Shown here in pieces: positions 39,491 through 49,064 of a stretch of DNA of 64,000 nt. Source of the stretch: Chthoniobacteraceae bacterium (lineage in GTDB: Bacteria > Verrucomicrobiota > Verrucomicrobiia > Chthoniobacterales > Chthoniobacteraceae); the NCBI GenBank assembly GCA_028293625.1, contig JAQGOL010000013.1, positions 1 through 64,000 on the forward strand, written 5' to 3'. How positions within the stretch are numbered: position 1 is the stretch's first letter; each line of letters starts with the position of its first letter. Below the pieces are notes generated by a model that did no database searches, was not told where the DNA came from, and saw only the letters and a program-made list of their open reading frames with translations. Made by a program: the position numbers and the translations under genes.

Positions 39491-40642
39491 TTAGCCAAGC
39501 TTTTTAACCGGAGTCCACTGGCCGGAGCGCGCGGAGCTCAGCACCGAGTCGCAAACGTACTGGGTTTCAAGCGCGTCGCGGAACGTCGGCGCGGCAGGCG
39601 TTCCTTCGGCGATGCCTTTAATGAAATCAGCAACCTGATGGACAAAGGTGTGCTCGTAACCGATCTGCAGGCCCGGCACCCACCAGTTGCCCATGTACGG
39701 ATGATCGGTATCGGTCACGTGAATGGATTTCCAGCCGCGTGTCTGGCTCTCTTCCCGGTAATCAAAATATTGGAGCCGTCCGAGATCATGGAGATCCCAT
39801 GCAATCGAGGCGTTCTCGCCGTTGATCTCAAAGGTGTTCTGCGCCTTGTGGCCGCGGGCATAACGGGTCGATTCAAACGTGCCAAGCGAGCCGTTGCTGA
39901 ACCGCGACAGGAATGCGCAGGCGTCGTCGATCTCCACTTTCTGCATCTGGCCGGTGAGCTGATGCATGCGTTCTTTGACAAACGTCTCCGTCATCGCGGT
40001 CACCGTGTCGATGCTGCCGTTGAGCCAAAGCGCCGTGTCGATGCAATGCGCCAGCAAATCGCCTGTCACACCGCTGCCGGCGGCCGCCGCATCCAGGCGC
40101 CAAAGACCCGCGCCGCCCTGCGGGATATCCGCGTTGATCGTCCAGTCCTGAAGAAATTTGGCGCGGTAATGGAAAACCCGGCCGAGTTTGCCTGAATCAA
40201 TAATCTGCTTTGCAAGTGTGACAGCAGGCACGCGCCGGTAGTTATACCAGACCATGTTGGCGACCCCGGCCTTCTCAATCTCGCGCACCATCTCCTCGCC
40301 TTGTGGTCCGTCGAGGGAGAGCGGCTTTTCGCACATCACCATTTTGCCGGCACGCGCCGCTGCGATGGAAATTTCCGCATGCGAATCGTTGGGGGTGCAG
40401 ATATCAATGATGTCGATATCGCTGCGTTCGATCAGTTTTTTCCAATCGGTCTCGGTCGATTCCCAGCCCCATTTGTCCGCATAAGCGGCCAGCTTGGCTT
40501 CATCGCGTCCGCACGCCGCCTTCAGCACGGGCTGATAGGGAAGATCGAAAAAATTGGACACCTTTCGGAAAGCGTTTGCATGGGTGCGCCCCATGAAACC
40601 GTATCCGACGATGCCGACGTTGAGTTGTTTCTTTGTGCTCAT
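39491..40642 (-). CDS. Gfo/Idh/MocA family oxidoreductase
   Basis: 383 residues from ATG 40642 ([20 protein letters not shown]); a longer in-frame start at 40702 would add 20 residues ahead of the Rossmann strand and is unlikely. The nucleotide site is [12 protein letters not shown], and the family signature [12 protein letters not shown] carries the Lys of [23 protein letters not shown] is also typical. These NAD(P)-dependent enzymes oxidise sugars, inositols or amino sugars. The substrate is unknown here. No export signal is present, so it is cytosolic. Confidence 0.92.
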
Positions 40643-40885
40643 TGGTTGGAGTTCTGAAGTGAGAAGGGCGGCGATTTCAACACGGAAGAGTCCGGCTGAC
40701 AACCCCCACGCATCTTAAATTCAACTCCTTCGAATTAACGACCCCGGGCCCGGCGCAGGCTGATTCAATGTCACAAGAAATTCACGCACCAGGGCTCCCA
40801 ATCCGGTGCAGCCTCAGTTACCACGGCGCCGGCATGAAATGCCGATAACTCAGACTCACCAACCAAATCCATACGCCACGCCTTT

Positions 40886-42403: not shown

Positions 42404-43291
42404 CTATTTCGGTTTGCGCTTTGAAACCGCCCGGGGCGCCCGCGGTTTTTTAGGCGCGCGGACCGGCGTCTTGACGGTTTCGCCGTCGACAAAATACATG
42501 TCGATATCGCCTTTGTTTTTTGCCGCGATCTTGCCGCGATGCACGCAATCAAAGCGCTCTTTAACAAGCGCCCAGGTTGCCCCCGAGATATTGATCTTGC
42601 CCACCTCGCAGCTTGACTCCATGCGGGACGCCGTATTGACCGTGTCGCCCCAGATGTCGTAGGCGAACTTTTTGACTCCGACGATCCCAGCCACGACGGG
42701 TCCGGTATGGATGCCGATACGGATCTCGAAAAAGAGTTCGCCCTTTTCCTGTTTGGCGAGTTTGTGGCTGAGCATGTAGCGCTGGATGTCGAGACCGGCC
42801 GCCACCAGATCGCAGGCATGACTGGAATTTACCGTGGGCAATCCCCCAACACAGAGGTAGCTGTCTCCAATCGTTTTGATCTTCTCGATCGGATAACGAC
42901 CAACAATTTCATCAAACGCGCGAAAGCATTCGTCCAGCTCAGCCACGAGCGCCTGGGGCGAAAGGCGTTCGCTGATTTGGGTAAATCCTTTGAAATCGGT
43001 GAACATCACCGTCACCGGATCAAATGAGCGGGCTTGGGAACGGCCGAATCGCTTGAGCTCATCGGCTGTTTCGGCCGGAAGAATATTGAGCAACAGGTCG
43101 TCGGCCTTCTTTTTCTCGGCCGCGAGCTCGATATTCGTATCAGCAAGCTGGTTCTCCACCGCTTCGCCGTGCTCGATTGTGTTCTGGTAAAGGATATGGA
43201 CTTCTTCAAGTTCGTCTGTGAGCCGCCGGTTCTCCACGCGCAACGCGTCAAGTTCAGCAGCCAGTCGCAAAGAATCGGAAGAGAGTTCCAT
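42404..43291 (-). CDS. Class III adenylate cyclase with N-terminal coiled coil
   Basis: 295 residues from ATG 43291, preceded by GGAG at a good distance; a longer frame to 43522 would run into the divergent operon and lacks coiled-coil character. Residues ~5-75 are a heptad-rich coiled coil (RLAAELDALRVENRRLTDEL). The cyclase domain has metal Asp residues in VTVMFTDFKGFTQ and IKTIGDSYL, and the base-selecting Lys (KIKTIGD) and Asp (FAYDIWGDTVNTASRM) typical of adenylate rather than guanylate cyclases. The C-terminal ~20 residues are Lys/Arg/Pro-rich. It makes cAMP in the cytosol. Its divergent position beside the partner-switching operon suggests a functional link, which is inference. Confidence 0.9.
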   Translation of the reverse strand: MELSSDSLRLAAELDALRVENRRLTDELEEVHILYQNTIEHGEAVENQLADTNIELAAEKKKADDLLLNILPAETADELKRFGRSQARSFDPVTVMFTDFKGFTQISERLSPQALVAELDECFRAFDEIVGRYPIEKIKTIGDSYLCVGGLPTVNSSHACDLVAAGLDIQRYMLSHKLAKQEKGELFFEIRIGIHTGPVVAGIVGVKKFAYDIWGDTVNTASRMESSCEVGKINISGATWALVKERFDCVHRGKIAAKNKGDIDMYFVDGETVKTPVRAPKKPRAPRAVSKRKPK

Positions 43292-43485
43292 CAGGACTCC
43301 CGCGTACCATTCTGCTGGCGCAGGGCAAGCCAATTTGATTTCAGCGGAGTGGAAAGTGGCGTGCGGAGAGCGATCGACTGAGGAGATCGACAAAACCGGG
43401 CGGATTATCTTGAAAAAGGAGTTCCAACCCCGTTCCTTCCTCGCGTCCAGGCTACCCAAGCACCCTTCCAACAACATTTTACATA
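43292..43485. promoter_or_regulatory. Divergent promoter region, cyclase and partner-switching operon
   Basis: 194 bp between the divergent cyclase and the first switch gene. It holds the cyclase ribosome site and, near 43470-43484, an A/T-rich tract (acattttacataat) resembling a -10 element just before the operon start. No convincing -35 box or CRP-like palindrome was identified by eye. Confidence 0.4.
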
Positions 43486-44007
43486 ATGCACGCCCCTGTA
43501 CTATCAGCTCAAGCGCGGTCACTTATCGAAATGAACGTGGAAATCGGGGGGTTCGCGGCGCATTGGCGGCACTGCGATCAGATGGCGAATTATCTCTCGC
43601 GGGCTGTCAGCCTGGAACGCACCGACTCCTTTTTTTATTCGAACCTTCTTTCAACCGTACTCAACGAGCTCTTTGAGATCGTTTTCTACCAGCACCAGTC
43701 AGCCGGCCAGCTCCTCTGCTCCATCCTGCGCGATGGCCCCGTCGACCGCATCGAACTCAATATTCCCGTGGGAAAGACCCAGACGGAGTTTTATCAAAGC
43801 AGCGTGGCCGACGCGCAATCGCTGCGCGCCGGCGAGCTTTATACCCGCTCGTTGCTCGGTGAAGCGGGTGCCAGTGGCGCCGTTGGGCTGCTTGAACTTG
43901 CCTCGGATTACGGGGCGAAAATATGGGTCGATTCGTTGGACACACCCAACCAGTTGCGCCTCACCGTTGACATCAGCCTCGAAGAAAACCGTTCCCCATC
44001 CGTATGA
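43486..44007 (+). CDS. Degenerate HATPase-like switch protein (slr1658-type), ATP site lost
   Basis: 173 residues (ATG 43531 is an alternative start). It aligns with the intact switch kinase at 47545: both have WxHCxxxAxxLS near residue 27-38, NELxE in the N-box, and GLLxLxxDYGAxI at the G-box. Here the N-box reads NELFEIVF with Ile where the Mg-binding Asn should be, and the GSGLGL loop is SGAVGL. ATP binding is therefore doubtful, making it a candidate pseudokinase that could still bind its STAS partner. It overlaps the next gene by 4 bp (ATGA) and is the first gene of a five-gene operon. The name slr1658-type follows the cyanobacterial family and is tentative. Confidence 0.65.
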   Translation: MHAPVLSAQARSLIEMNVEIGGFAAHWRHCDQMANYLSRAVSLERTDSFFYSNLLSTVLNELFEIVFYQHQSAGQLLCSILRDGPVDRIELNIPVGKTQTEFYQSSVADAQSLRAGELYTRSLLGEAGASGAVGLLELASDYGAKIWVDSLDTPNQLRLTVDISLEENRSPSV

Positions 44008-45161
44008 GCTTTTCTGTTCGCTTTGACGATAATAACCAGGAAATCGTGTTCGCGGGGGTGATGCGGCCAAAAGGGGCCAGGGAGATCGCCCCGGTGCGGG
44101 AATTGGTGGAGCAAGTGGTTGTGCGGATTTCGGGCACGCTTTTTCTCAATTTCAAAAAGCTAAACAAGATCAACAATGTCGCGTTTCATGAACTGGCGGC
44201 AATCCTGACTTTAGTCTGCAAACAGCAGCCCGACCTTAAGATCCGGATCATTGTTTCAAGCGTGGTGGGCTGGGCAATGCGCAAGTTCAAAGTAATCGGC
44301 TCGATCAGCCCGAATATCCATATCGAGCAATACGACAACGATTTTTACCCCGGCCAGGGCGTGCTTGAAGATGGTGGTTTTGTGCCGATTTTACGCACCC
44401 AGACCAAGATGACATGGCGCCACGAACGCCGGATTCTTCCCCGGCATGGACTTAAGCCCGGAATGCATGTGGCCGACATCTGTTGTGGAATCGGCGATTT
44501 TGCGGTGCTGCTTCAAAAAGAATTCAAGCCGGACCGCCTCGTCGCGCTCGACCATGCCAAGGCAAGTTTGAACTACGCCCGCAAAGTGGCGGAAGACTTT
44601 GGGATTACCGATATCGAGTATATCTACGGAGACGCCTCGGCTCTTCTGCTCGATGACAACCAGTTCGATTTTGTGACCTGCCGCCACGCCTTGCAGGTCT
44701 TTAACAAACCTGAACTCATCCTGAAAGAACTCTTCCGCATCTGCAGACCGGGCGGACGGGTTTACGTTACCAACGAAAAGAACTCGCATTGCCTGGGCGA
44801 ACCGCGAGCCGATTCCATCGCGTGGACTTATAACGAAGTCGCCAGGCTTTGGGGCGATTTTGAGATGGATATCGAGCTTGGGCCAAAAAGCCGGCGGCTG
44901 CTCGATGAGGCCGGCTTTGATGACGTCCGCATGGAATCGTTCATGGTCACAAACCTCGACGGCGATCCGCAGGATTTTGCCGACATCATCCAGGCATGGG
45001 AAGACGTTTACGCCGGCAAAATGTCCGCCGAACGTGGCGACGACCAGGAATTTGTGACCCGGTTCCGGCAAGGTTTTCAGGATCACATCTACGCGGCGCT
45101 TCATCCCAAAGGCTATGCCGGATGGCCGATCTGGATCGCGTCGGCGCGCAAACCTCTATGA
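44004..45161 (+). CDS. STAS-like (slr1659-type) domain fused to SAM methyltransferase
   Basis: 385 residues. Residues ~1-110 align without gaps over much of their length with the stand-alone STAS-like protein at 48133 (VFAGVMRPKGAREIAPVREL versus [20 protein letters not shown]). The SSG phosphosite loop is replaced by NVA (KINNVAFHE), so it cannot be phosphorylated in the normal way. Residues ~135-385 are a class I SAM methyltransferase: motif I HVADICCGIGDF (155-166), motif II-type VALDHAKASL, YIYGDASALLLDD and a post-motif FDFVTCRHALQVFNKPELIL. It overlaps both neighbours by 4 bp, so it is translationally coupled. The methyl acceptor is unknown. The methyltransferase is probably an output controlled by the switch. 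Confidence 0.78.
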   Translation: MSFSVRFDDNNQEIVFAGVMRPKGAREIAPVRELVEQVVVRISGTLFLNFKKLNKINNVAFHELAAILTLVCKQQPDLKIRIIVSSVVGWAMRKFKVIGSISPNIHIEQYDNDFYPGQGVLEDGGFVPILRTQTKMTWRHERRILPRHGLKPGMHVADICCGIGDFAVLLQKEFKPDRLVALDHAKASLNYARKVAEDFGITDIEYIYGDASALLLDDNQFDFVTCRHALQVFNKPELILKELFRICRPGGRVYVTNEKNSHCLGEPRADSIAWTYNEVARLWGDFEMDIELGPKSRRLLDEAGFDDVRMESFMVTNLDGDPQDFADIIQAWEDVYAGKMSAERGDDQEFVTRFRQGFQDHIYAALHPKGYAGWPIWIASARKPL

Positions 45162-47539
45162 GCGGAGTGCATCGCCACGAGTCCGGGAAAAAGTGGTTTC
45201 GATTCGCGCCAAAAAGCTTTCGCACCAAGTTCATTCTGGTGGTCGGAGCCGCCGTGATTTTCGACCTGCTCATGAGCGGCGGCGTGGCGCTGTGGAACGT
45301 GCAACGGCTCGGCGAGGATGCTTCAACTGAACTCAAAAACGGCTTGGAAAAAGCGAGCCGCGAATACCTCGAGAATTACATCCACACCACCGGGCTCCGC
45401 GCAAACCTCCTGCTTGAACGCGTTTACTCGGAAGTAACAGCGCTCTCGGGCCCCATGCAGGCGCTGATCGATCATCCCGATGCGCAAAAGGAGATTGGGG
45501 ACGCCGCTGCCAGGATCCCGTATCTCTCGGATAAACTCTATTTTGATCCGACCGGCAAATGGGTCCAGAACGAGAAGCACGAACCCTCTGTCATCAGCGT
45601 CTGGGGTTACCTTCTTGGAGCCGATCATCAACCGCGTCCGGATGTACTGCGTGAAATCCAGGAGACGGCGGTTTTTGATCTTTTTGGGACGAGCCTGATG
45701 AGAACCGGGGCCAAAAAGCTCCAGATGTATTACATGGGCCCCAAGGATCGGCCCATCATGCGGACGACGCCGTATTCAGATCAGGCACAGACCTTCGACA
45801 AACTTTACCCCGGCCATAACGACAAAAATTTCTGGGATTTCTTTTTCCCGGGCGTTTATGAGGGGTGGCAGGAATGGATCAAAGATCCAAAGCGCTCGCA
45901 TGGAAACAGCGACGTCACCAGCACCGCGCCGTACGTCGACGCGATTACGGGCAACCTGATTGTCACGTTTTTCCATCCGCTTTGGAATAAGGAGCGAACC
46001 GATTGCGCCGGAGCGGTTGCCGTCGACATCACGCTCGAACAATTCGCCGACCTGATCAACGACGTCCGTGTCGCTGACAGTGGGTTCGGTTTTTTGAGCA
46101 TGTCGAATGGCAACGTCATCGCCATTCCGCCACAGGGAGAGAAAACCCTTGGCATTATGATAAAAAACCAGGGCGCGGGCGAAGGAGTCACAGGACTCGA
46201 CCGCAGTCTGGGAATGAGCATCTATCCGGCAGTCAAATCGCTCACGCTGCCAACGAACGACGCGGTGGCAATCCATCACGTCAAGCTCATGGCCAACGGC
46301 CAGGCTGAGCCGTATGTGATCGTCCTGCATCGCCTTTCAGAAATGAACTTCTGGGGTGGGAAAAAGATCGGAAAAGAAAACGCCACCCTCGGTTTTGTCG
46401 TGCCTGAACGGGAAATCTACGCCTCCCTCTACGCGGCCCAGGAGGACATCGCAAAAGCGACCACCCGCATCCGAAACTGGCAAATGGGATTGGTGTTCCT
46501 CAGCCTCGGCATCGTGCTTGCAGCCGTCTTTGGGATCTCAAAACGGATCACCGCCGGGATTAGTGCGCTCGCCAGCGCGGCCAGCCGGCTTGAGGAAAAA
46601 GATTATTCAGTCCGGGTGAAAATTGAAAGCGGCGATGAGATTGGCGAACTGGGAAGCGCTTTTAACCAGATGGCGGCCGAGATCGAGAATTACACAAAGA
46701 ACCTCGAAAGGCTCGTCTTTGAACGCACCGCAAAACTGGGTGCCGCAAATGCCGAGATTCAATCGTTAAACGAACGGCTCAAGGGCGAGAACTCGCGACT
46801 CGGAGCGGAATTGGATATCGCCCGGCAATTGCAGATGATGGTGCTGCCCAAAAAGAGAGAACTACAAGCCGTCCCGCGCCTTGATATCGCCGGCTATATG
46901 GAACCGGCCAATGAAGTGGGTGGCGACTATTACGATGTCCTTCAAATCGATGGGCGCGTAAAAATCGGAATCGGCGACGTCACCGGCCACGGATTGGAAA
47001 GCGGCGTGCTGATGCTCATGGTGCAATCGGTGGCGCGCACCCTCCTTGAAAGCGGGGAACAGGATCCCAAACGCTTTTTAAACGTGCTCAACAGCGTCAT
47101 TTGCAAAAACATCGAGCGCACCGGCTCGGGCAATAACCTCACGCTTTCGTTTCTCGATTACAAAGAGAACGTCGTCACGCTTGCAGGCCAGCACGAGGAA
47201 CTCATCCTCATTCGCAAAGATGGCAGCATTGAGCGGATTGACACGATCGACCTCGGATTTCCCGTCGGACTCGAATCCGAGATTGCGCAATTCATCAATA
47301 CGCGGGAACTGCCTTTTGAAACCGACGACATTATTATTCTTTATACCGACGGAATCACCGAAGCGGAAAGCCCCGCGGGTGAGCTATTCGGGATTGAACG
47401 ATTGAGTGAAAGCGCCCAACGGCATCGCGCAGGCTCAGCAGTGGAAGTGAAGCGCAATATTATTAAAGATGTGCGAGCCCACATCGATACGCAGAAGGTT
47501 CACGACGACATCACCCTCCTGGTTCTTAAACACCTTTAA
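45158..47539 (+). CDS. Cache-HAMP-PP2C (SpoIIE/RsbU-type) signalling phosphatase
   Basis: 793 residues from ATG 45158 (overlapping the previous stop by 4 bp). Membrane helix 1 spans ~22-44 and helix 2 ~443-460. A ~390-residue ectodomain of Cache type lies between them (VDAITGNLIVTFFHPLWNKE, then AGAVAVDITLEQFADLI). HAMP (~461-515) and a coiled coil precede the PP2C domain (~565-793). Metal-binding acids are all present: VGGDYYD (D590), GIGDVTGHG (D607), LYTDGITEAE (D731) and VHDDITLL (D783, D784). It should dephosphorylate the STAS antagonist encoded downstream after binding an extracellular small ligand. Layout and partners resemble the SiaA/RsbU logic. Confidence 0.9.
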   Translation: MSGVHRHESGKKWFRFAPKSFRTKFILVVGAAVIFDLLMSGGVALWNVQRLGEDASTELKNGLEKASREYLENYIHTTGLRANLLLERVYSEVTALSGPMQALIDHPDAQKEIGDAAARIPYLSDKLYFDPTGKWVQNEKHEPSVISVWGYLLGADHQPRPDVLREIQETAVFDLFGTSLMRTGAKKLQMYYMGPKDRPIMRTTPYSDQAQTFDKLYPGHNDKNFWDFFFPGVYEGWQEWIKDPKRSHGNSDVTSTAPYVDAITGNLIVTFFHPLWNKERTDCAGAVAVDITLEQFADLINDVRVADSGFGFLSMSNGNVIAIPPQGEKTLGIMIKNQGAGEGVTGLDRSLGMSIYPAVKSLTLPTNDAVAIHHVKLMANGQAEPYVIVLHRLSEMNFWGGKKIGKENATLGFVVPEREIYASLYAAQEDIAKATTRIRNWQMGLVFLSLGIVLAAVFGISKRITAGISALASAASRLEEKDYSVRVKIESGDEIGELGSAFNQMAAEIENYTKNLERLVFERTAKLGAANAEIQSLNERLKGENSRLGAELDIARQLQMMVLPKKRELQAVPRLDIAGYMEPANEVGGDYYDVLQIDGRVKIGIGDVTGHGLESGVLMLMVQSVARTLLESGEQDPKRFLNVLNSVICKNIERTGSGNNLTLSFLDYKENVVTLAGQHEELILIRKDGSIERIDTIDLGFPVGLESEIAQFINTRELPFETDDIIILYTDGITEAESPAGELFGIERLSESAQRHRAGSAVEVKRNIIKDVRAHIDTQKVHDDITLLVLKHL

Positions 47540-47544
47540 TCCCG

Positions 47545-48108
47545 ATGAAAACTTCCTTCGGCGACTCCTCGGCTTTGCCCGCTGACCTGCAACGCTCCAC
47601 CCGGATTACCTTTAATACCGATGCCCTCCAGCTCAAATGGCATCATTGCAGCAGTTCCGCCGATTTTTTGAGCCACTTCTACGAGGGGCTCTTCTCCAAC
47701 GAGGCGGATTCAGCCGACAGCAGCGATCTTGTCCACGCCATTGCCTACATGGCCAACGAGCTCATTGAAAATGCCGTCAAATTCCGCACCGACGGCAACG
47801 TGGTGATCGAATCGGGCCTGACCGAAGACGACTTTTTATTGCGCATCGACCATTCGATCTCGGCGGAGACCAGCCAGCGCTTTCAATCGCTTCTTGAAAA
47901 AATCACGGATGGCGATCCGGGAGAACTGCTGATTGAACGGCTTGAAGCCAATGCAGCCGGCGATAACGCCAATGGTTCGGGGCTAGGCTTGCTGACTTTG
48001 ATGAATGATTATGGCGCCCGGATTTCCTGGAGTTTTGAGCAACCCGGGGAATCGCCCGAAGATCCCGTGCGTGTGGAAACTGTCGCCCGGCTTGCCCTTC
48101 CCCATTAG
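47545..48108 (+). CDS. Intact HATPase-like switch kinase (slr1658/DUF6272-type)
   Basis: 187 residues, 5 bp after the phosphatase gene. It carries an N-box NELIENAVKF (N71, E72, N76) and a G-box GSGLGLLTLMNDYGA (144-158), as in RsbW/SpoIIAB-type switch kinases. By family logic it phosphorylates a Ser on the STAS antagonist (next gene) and the phosphatase reverses this. It is the functional counterpart of the degenerate copy at 43486-44007. It is soluble with no membrane segment. The family name is tentative. Confidence 0.78.
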   Translation: MKTSFGDSSALPADLQRSTRITFNTDALQLKWHHCSSSADFLSHFYEGLFSNEADSADSSDLVHAIAYMANELIENAVKFRTDGNVVIESGLTEDDFLLRIDHSISAETSQRFQSLLEKITDGDPGELLIERLEANAAGDNANGSGLGLLTLMNDYGARISWSFEQPGESPEDPVRVETVARLALPH

Positions 48109-48132: not shown

Positions 48133-48471
48133 ATGGAAATCAAGAGTAACGAATACCGAGTTTGGAGCGAAGAAGCGATCATCCACTTTGAGGGAACGAT
48201 GCGCCTGAGCGGCACCGAAGCCTACGCGCCGATTAATGAACTCATGGATGGAGTCCTCTCCACGCACCCTTCCCTGATCATTCTTGATTTAACCAGCCTT
48301 GAGTTGCTCAACAGCTCGGGCATCAACTTGCTGGCTAAGTTCACAATCGCGGTGCGCAAACAACCCGACATCGCCATCCAGGTCAAAGGGTCCAACCGGA
48401 TTCCGTGGCAGGGCAAATCACTGCCGAACCTGAAAAAACTCCATCCCGCCCTTGAGCTGGTGATTGAGTAA
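48133..48471 (+). CDS. STAS-like anti-anti-sigma-type antagonist (slr1659-type)
   Basis: 112 residues with a STAS-like fold: [40 protein letters not shown], and [20 protein letters not shown]. The phosphorylation loop NSSG (60-63) is preserved, so the protein can be the substrate of the kinase 24 bp upstream and of the PP2C phosphatase. It is the last gene of the operon on this strand. Its target output is not encoded in an obvious way, unless it acts on the methyltransferase or on the divergent cyclase. Confidence 0.8.
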
Positions 48472-48497: not shown

Positions 48498-49064
48498 TTA
48501 TTTCTGATGCGCGACGGCCCGGTCCTGTGCGCCTGCCATTGCACCGGAGGCTACGCGGCAGTTGGGACAGACGGTATGCTGGAAGATAAAGTCATCTTCC
48601 GACACCCTCGTGAAATACTCCTCGATGTCATGCCACTGGCCTCGCTCGTCCTCGATGTTCTTGCATCCAAGACAGATTGGCAACCGGCCGCTGAGGCGCT
48701 GGATTTTCGCCATGGCCGCGGTGATCTGCTTGTTTAATTCGCGCTCGTGATCAAGCAGCTTGCGGATTCGAGCCACCGAATAGGCAGCCAGGAGGAAAAC
48801 GGTGAGCATCACCAATCCGCCCCACCACCCGTAAAGCGGATGGGGATACGCGCCGCCTAAGATCGCATTATCGGCAAACCAAATCGCGGCCGATGCGAAC
48901 GCAAGAATCATGGCCAGACGCGTCCCGGCGGCCCACGAGACAAAAGCGATCGGCACGATGTAAAGGATGAACACGTCCAGCTCGTCGCCGGTCACGTAAT
49001 CAAGCCAGCCAATCAGCGGGATTGCCGCGCAGGCGATAATCAATGACAGGGATGAAGTTTTCAT
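48498..49064 (-). CDS. Four-helix membrane protein with C-terminal Cys4 motif
   Basis: 188 residues. About four transmembrane helices span residues ~5-97 (LSLIIACAAIPLIGWLDYVT; VFILYIVPIAFVSWAAG; AMILAFASAAIWFADNA; GGLVMLTVFLLAAYSVARI). A short coiled coil (~98-122) is followed by LPICLGCKNIEDERGQWHDI (CLGC at 131-134) and HTVCPNC (166-169). This Cys4-type tail matches the zinc-ribbon-like end found on many PAS and receiver proteins, so it probably has a signal-output role. It is convergent with the STAS gene and may belong to the same sensory region. Confidence 0.65.
   Translation of the reverse strand: MKTSSLSLIIACAAIPLIGWLDYVTGDELDVFILYIVPIAFVSWAAGTRLAMILAFASAAIWFADNAILGGAYPHPLYGWWGGLVMLTVFLLAAYSVARIRKLLDHERELNKQITAAMAKIQRLSGRLPICLGCKNIEDERGQWHDIEEYFTRVSEDDFIFQHTVCPNCRVASGAMAGAQDRAVAHQK

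Follow-up and report, generated by a model that had tools for sequence, protein, structure and literature searches.

According to our analysis, the window (the whole stretch of DNA analysed here, 64,000 nucleotides) carries an operon for a putative phosphorylation-dependent switch, with a nucleotide cyclase gene divergent from it. The following features were delineated; the curated cut-off is 100 bits for NF047705 and likewise for NF047703.

42404–43522, minus strand: class III nucleotide cyclase, divergent from the operon (PF00211, 182 bits)
43070–43285, minus strand: coiled-coil stalk motif LYQNTIEHGEAVENQLADTN, common to the cyclase, eight SpoIIE neighbours at other loci and a diguanylate cyclase of genome G384
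43486–44007, plus strand: slr1658A, a slr1658-superfamily protein without ATP-site motifs (NF047703, 48 bits, below the cut-off)
44004–45161, plus strand: fusion of a slr1659/STAS-like domain with a class I SAM methyltransferase, 385 aa (ORF call, Pfam, NCBIfam, alignments and predicted structure)
45158–47539, plus strand: sensor phosphatase with a dCache-like ectodomain, HAMP and a SpoIIE/PP2C domain with metal-binding motifs (PF07228, 131 bits; PF00672; weak PF02743)
47545–48108, plus strand: slr1658B, an intact kinase-like ATPase with NELIENAVKF and GSGLGLLTL (NF047703, 167 bits, above the cut-off)
48133–48471, plus strand: slr1659B, a stand-alone STAS-like protein with the phosphosite motif LNSSGIN (NF047705, 138 bits, above the cut-off)

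Adjoining the operon, positions 48498–49064 of the minus strand encode a small membrane protein whose C-terminus carries the cysteine motif CLGCKNIEDERGQW...CPNC and for which a weak DUF4118-like match was the only one found.

The first-pass annotation had read the frame at 44004–45161 as a STAS-like domain fused to a methyltransferase, and this reading was borne out at exactly these coordinates, with both halves of the 385-residue product matched. Residues 1–110 are STAS-like, residues 111–145 form a conserved linker, and the methyltransferase extends from about residue 130–146 to residue 385. The proposed kinship of the first ~110 residues with the neighbouring stand-alone protein was recovered both by pairwise alignment (residues ~1–107 against 48133–48471, 26% identity over 94 aa, E 1e-11) and by hhalign against slr1659B profiles (probability 96.3, E 1.9e-9). 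Residues 3–106 match the slr1659 superfamily model NF047705 with 39 bits (E 6.7e-10), so that the domain is homologous to this superfamily yet lies outside the curated family. Modelled alone with AlphaFold from an input of 14 orthologues, residues 1–112 gave a pLDDT of 89 and an independent SpoIIAA-like beta-alpha fold. The closest solved structure is SiaC (Z 12.9, 111 residues aligned), with matches that include the SiaB-SiaC and SiaC-SiaD complexes, followed by RsfB (Z 12.0), RsbV (11.2) and SpoIIAA (8–10.8). Because residues 1–112 fold by themselves as a SpoIIAA/SiaC-type domain, the possibility that the N-terminus is a simple extension of the methyltransferase fold, which the first-pass annotation had left standing against its own proposal, was rejected.

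The remainder of the protein is a complete class I SAM methyltransferase, as had been claimed. PF13649 (Methyltransf_25) scores 66 bits against a cut-off of 27 and PF08241 (Methyltransf_11) 64 against 21, the Pfam match spans residues 131–260, UbiE-type models also match, and motif I, DICCGIGDF or a near variant, is present in 81/81 fusions. In the orthologue alignment, 142 of the 280 columns of this part are invariant; the enzyme is thus strongly constrained and, judged from its sequence, probably active. A lipid, quinone or small molecule had been suggested as its substrate, but our analysis gave no pointer to any class: the solved relatives are diverse, spanning peptide (LahSB), phosphoethanolamine and antibiotic methyltransferases, and no conserved downstream gene that could serve as a clue was found among ten loci, whose neighbours vary. 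Inference of the substrate from structure was abandoned, as the Foldseek matches were many unrelated methyltransferases and the model was only moderately confident in this part.

The replacement of the phosphosite by NVA, also asserted earlier, holds for the window, where the fusion has NVA vs. SSG in slr1659B, but not for the whole family. At the second position of the triad, the 81 fusions have Thr (41), Ala (32) or another hydrophobic residue (8), and with Thr in 41/81 a universal loss of the phosphosite was rejected. A conserved phosphoacceptor Ser/Thr at the start of helix 2 is, accordingly, not a feature of the fusion. Fusions with Thr at this position may still be phosphorylatable, which would run counter to the catalytically silent pair considered below.

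The stop codon of slr1658A overlaps the start of the fusion by 4 bp (ATGA, 44004–44007). In 81/81 sequences, slr1658A lacks both the N-box Asn and the SGLG turn, and its N-box position reads as NELLEVxF-type vs. NELIENAVKF in slr1658B; the protein thus falls short of the slr1658 superfamily model both in score (48 vs. 100 bits) and in ATP motifs. GHKL ATPases depend on both of these elements for Mg-ATP, so that slr1658A is likely a pseudokinase. By comparison, slr1658B combines a score above the cut-off with the ATP motifs, and an NELxEN(A/S)xKF-type N-box is kept in 80/80 sequences and SGLG in nearly all. Plasmid records label two orthologues of slr1658A (L086, 8459–8977; L087, 8450–8965) as “ubiquinone biosynthesis methyltransferase UbiE”; on these degenerate GHKL-type proteins the label is apparently a propagated annotation error.

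These data bear on a reading in which the methyltransferase is an ordinary metabolic enzyme carried along in the operon, and its N-terminal domain has lost any part in signalling and serves only for stability or dimerisation. The STAS-like part evolves fast (12/105 columns invariant, vs. 142/280 in the methyltransferase), and in the window its phosphosite is lost. However, its constant partner is the translationally coupled slr1658A, itself degenerate, and when the methyltransferase part alone was used as a query against 299 Pseudomonadota genomes, it was found inside fusions only, save for one match with 35% identity. We therefore regard a passive N-terminal domain as quite improbable.

The sensor phosphatase gene starts within the stop codon of the fusion (ATGA, 45158–45161, a 4-bp overlap), and its product scores 109 bits against the SiaA-like C-terminus model, for which the cut-off is 700. 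The motif LNSSGIN of slr1659B is kept in 80/80 sequences, and the protein combines it with a score above the NF047705 cut-off. Besides the fusion, the operon thus encodes a transmembrane phosphatase of the dCache-HAMP-SpoIIE type, a pair of slr1658-type kinase-like proteins and an slr1659 that looks phosphorylatable. Two slr1659-type genes were noted in other surroundings. On plasmid pA of Kovacikia minuta (L146, 6259–8868), a cyanobacterial slr1658/slr1659 pair is followed directly by a SulP-type transporter, a hint that slr1659 may also act on targets of another kind. On the conjugative plasmid pBMC401 of Burkholderia ambifaria (L145, 7004–7348), an slr1659-like gene stands by itself: it is surrounded by many small hypothetical genes and one labelled “abortive infection family,” and the annotation shows neither a kinase nor a phosphatase close by.

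A scan of species-representative genomes yielded 192 related loci; 80 were kept, a set picked by similarity to the fusion, and all 80 carry the fusion at full length (64–73% identity). Its occurrence beyond the window is therefore established, and a local or chance fusion or an assembly artefact was rejected on this ground. The hosts include Mesorhizobium, Sinorhizobium/Ensifer, Rhizobium, Aminobacter, Phyllobacterium, Parvibaculum, Competibacteraceae and others, and the fusion occurs on rhizobial megaplasmids, among them pSymB of Sinorhizobium meliloti 1021. The order slr1658A, fusion, SpoIIE phosphatase, slr1658B, slr1659B recurs in the 80 loci, one of which (L026) ends early at a contig end. 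In an unbiased slr1659 search, a strong slr1659 was found in 7/398 Pseudomonadota genomes, one of the seven being the genome used as centre, and 6/7 carry the fusion. In Rhizobium sp. CC-CFT758 (L088, 15397–17553), the operon is followed after ~2 kb by bcsA, a cellulose synthase gene; in none of the other loci that were checked was it seen beside the operon.

Among the relatives of the window genome the distribution is different: no fusion protein was found in other genomes among the 38 searched in its group, and no strong slr1659 in other genomes among 289 in its phylum. The flanking gene at 39491–40702 has orthologues with 82–86% identity within the genus, which argues that the contig is native, and in a quick tree the window fusion, on a long end branch, groups with the Parvibaculum/Competibacteraceae loci (SH-aLRT 98). 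As the window genome is the sole carrier among the relatives searched, has a genus-typical flanking gene and branches with these loci, horizontal acquisition is the natural reading, and the operon was probably gained in this way. GC content showed no anomaly over the operon, and the relatives' loci compared around 39491 did not reveal an insertion point.

The gene adjoining the operon is a swappable enzyme. In the window it is the cyclase at 42404–43522, which we take to be of the adenylate type, with K (EKIKTIGD) and D (YDIWGDTVN) at the substrate-specifying positions. In other loci, a SpoIIE phosphatase occupies the same place in 8, and a GGDEF-EAL protein lies nearby in 72/80, upstream where checked. 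The window cyclase and the SpoIIE neighbours have a common N-terminal coiled-coil motif, LYxxTIEHGEAVExxLAxxN. The stalk profile also matches a diguanylate cyclase with ALQTAIDHGDAIEEQLVATN (E 4.6e-7) in G384, an unrelated Pseudomonadota genome; this protein matches the SiaD model as well, and its gene immediately precedes those of slr1658, slr1659, a protein of the periplasmic-binding type and a SpoIIE sensor, in a locus without the methyltransferase fusion. The divergent stalk-bearing cyclase is likely a second output, one that was absent from the first-pass annotation.

Structural work has shown that in Pseudomonas aeruginosa the STAS-like protein SiaC binds motifs on the stalk of SiaD, and that phosphorylation of SiaC at T68 blocks this binding (PMC8457831). 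By analogy, the stalk motif may correspond in function to the stalk of SiaD, and we infer that it could serve as a portable docking stalk for slr1659. Compared with PDB sequences, the motif gave only chance coiled coils and no sequence match to the SiaD stalk. The profile did not find it in the GGDEF-EAL neighbour loci (72/80), and at these loci slr1659B must therefore work in another way. Elsewhere in the Gammaproteobacteria MAG, at G323:C10:9390-9476 (L129), a further, partial match to the stalk (E 2e-5) lies within a 443-aa frame, whose product may be another target of this switch.

The fusion's own STAS-like domain might likewise dock on the stalk of the cyclase or phosphatase, as a permanent mimic of unphosphorylated slr1659 that rivals slr1659B. 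It shares its fold with SiaC, and in 9/9 stalk-bearing loci the first residue of the fusion's triad is Asn and the second carries no hydroxyl. The equal conservation of the fusion in the 72 GGDEF-EAL loci showing no stalk motif speaks against such mimicry, which we consider very unlikely.

Taken with slightly less than even confidence, our proposal is that the locus encodes a SiaABCD-like phosphorylation-dependent partner switch that controls a cyclase and has a covalently attached methyltransferase as its second branch. The fusion and its fold, the gene order, the loss and retention of motifs, the swapped neighbour and the shared stalk motif are direct observations. For the steps of the switch, we infer the kinase and phosphatase reactions, docking, competition and a change in methyltransferase activity. 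An extracellular ligand would be sensed by the dCache-HAMP-SpoIIE protein, leading to dephosphorylation of slr1659B, which slr1658B would rephosphorylate. Unphosphorylated slr1659B would bind the coiled-coil stalk of the neighbouring cyclase and thereby activate it, in the manner of SiaC and SiaD. The duplicated pair, slr1658A and the fusion's STAS-like domain, would now be catalytically silent, with slr1658A, presumably unable to bind ATP, acting as the holder of the STAS-like domain. Competition of unphosphorylated slr1659B for slr1658A would then free or re-target the methyltransferase, which would in this way be switched by the signal. More tentatively, the methyltransferase may be the conserved direct output: fused to the STAS-like domain of the switch itself and held by a pseudokinase blind to ATP, it would work in parallel to a second-messenger enzyme that can be exchanged and that connects to the switch via the portable coiled-coil stalk.

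The main rival to this second-branch model is feedback methylation of an operon protein. The STAS-like domain would then be a constitutive targeting module that anchors the methyltransferase on slr1658A and the signalling complex, and the enzyme would methylate a pathway component (e.g., the sensor phosphatase or the cyclase) for feedback or adaptation rather than form a separate output. Among the loci examined, the fusion was never found without the other operon genes, it is kept when the enzyme neighbour is swapped, and the triad in the window, NVA, is non-phosphorylatable, all of which fit this scenario. However, the closest structures of the methyltransferase mix small-molecule methyltransferases with the peptide methyltransferase LahSB, so that a protein target is not favoured, and we judge feedback methylation to be unlikely.

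The partner-switch outputs known so far are mainly sigma factors and diguanylate cyclases (PMC8457831, PMC8256260). In the open-access literature we found nothing on a switch function of slr1658/slr1659 or on a STAS-methyltransferase fusion (subscription papers were mostly outside the scope of this search), and the fusion is annotated as “class I SAM-dependent methyltransferase,” with relatives recorded as “methyltransferase” or hypothetical. The fusion, with its conserved place in the operon, suggests that methylation is an output of such a partner switch that has gone largely undescribed. If the second-branch model is true, enzymatic methylation joins the outputs of partner switching, in a conserved operon found also in model rhizobia; a pseudokinase/pseudo-substrate pair is added to this type of regulation; and a single switch can be connected to cAMP, c-di-GMP or phosphatase enzymes through the exchange of one gene.

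Among known systems, the closest in layout is SiaABCD of P. aeruginosa, which consists of the PP2C phosphatase SiaA, the kinase SiaB, the STAS-like protein SiaC and the diguanylate cyclase SiaD. The window locus likewise has a membrane HAMP-SpoIIE/PP2C sensor, a kinase-like ATPase, a STAS-like protein and a stalk on the neighbouring cyclase. In contrast to SiaABCD, its kinase and STAS-like proteins belong to the slr1658/slr1659 families and not to SiaB/DUF1987 (slr1658B scores 14.8 bits vs. 85 for SiaB, and there is no DUF1987 match), its cyclase is of the adenylate type, a stalk-bearing diguanylate cyclase occurring only in G384, and it has an additional, duplicated pair with a methyltransferase at its end. 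In the slr1658/slr1659 superfamily (NF047703/NF047705), known from cyanobacteria and others, slr1658B and slr1659B are full members above the cut-off; these models describe small stand-alone proteins, whereas the fusion's domain is a divergent homologue below it, and the papers found assign the superfamily no function. The STAS-controlled diguanylate cyclases BgrV-BgrR of S. meliloti and HsbA-HsbD of P. aeruginosa (PMC8457831) resemble the window locus in that a partner-switch STAS protein acts on an enzyme and not on a sigma factor, but, unlike the fusion, they are separate proteins without a methyltransferase. The class I methyltransferases 3mgg, LahSB (6uak) and UbiE-like enzymes have the Rossmann core and SAM-binding motifs in common with the fusion, at ~13–22% identity in the structural matches, and those listed have no N-terminal STAS-like domain. 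Overall, the family tests place the core of the locus (sensor phosphatase, slr1658B, slr1659B and stalk cyclase) outside SiaABCD, whereas by the analogy of its anatomy it is a SiaABCD-like system.
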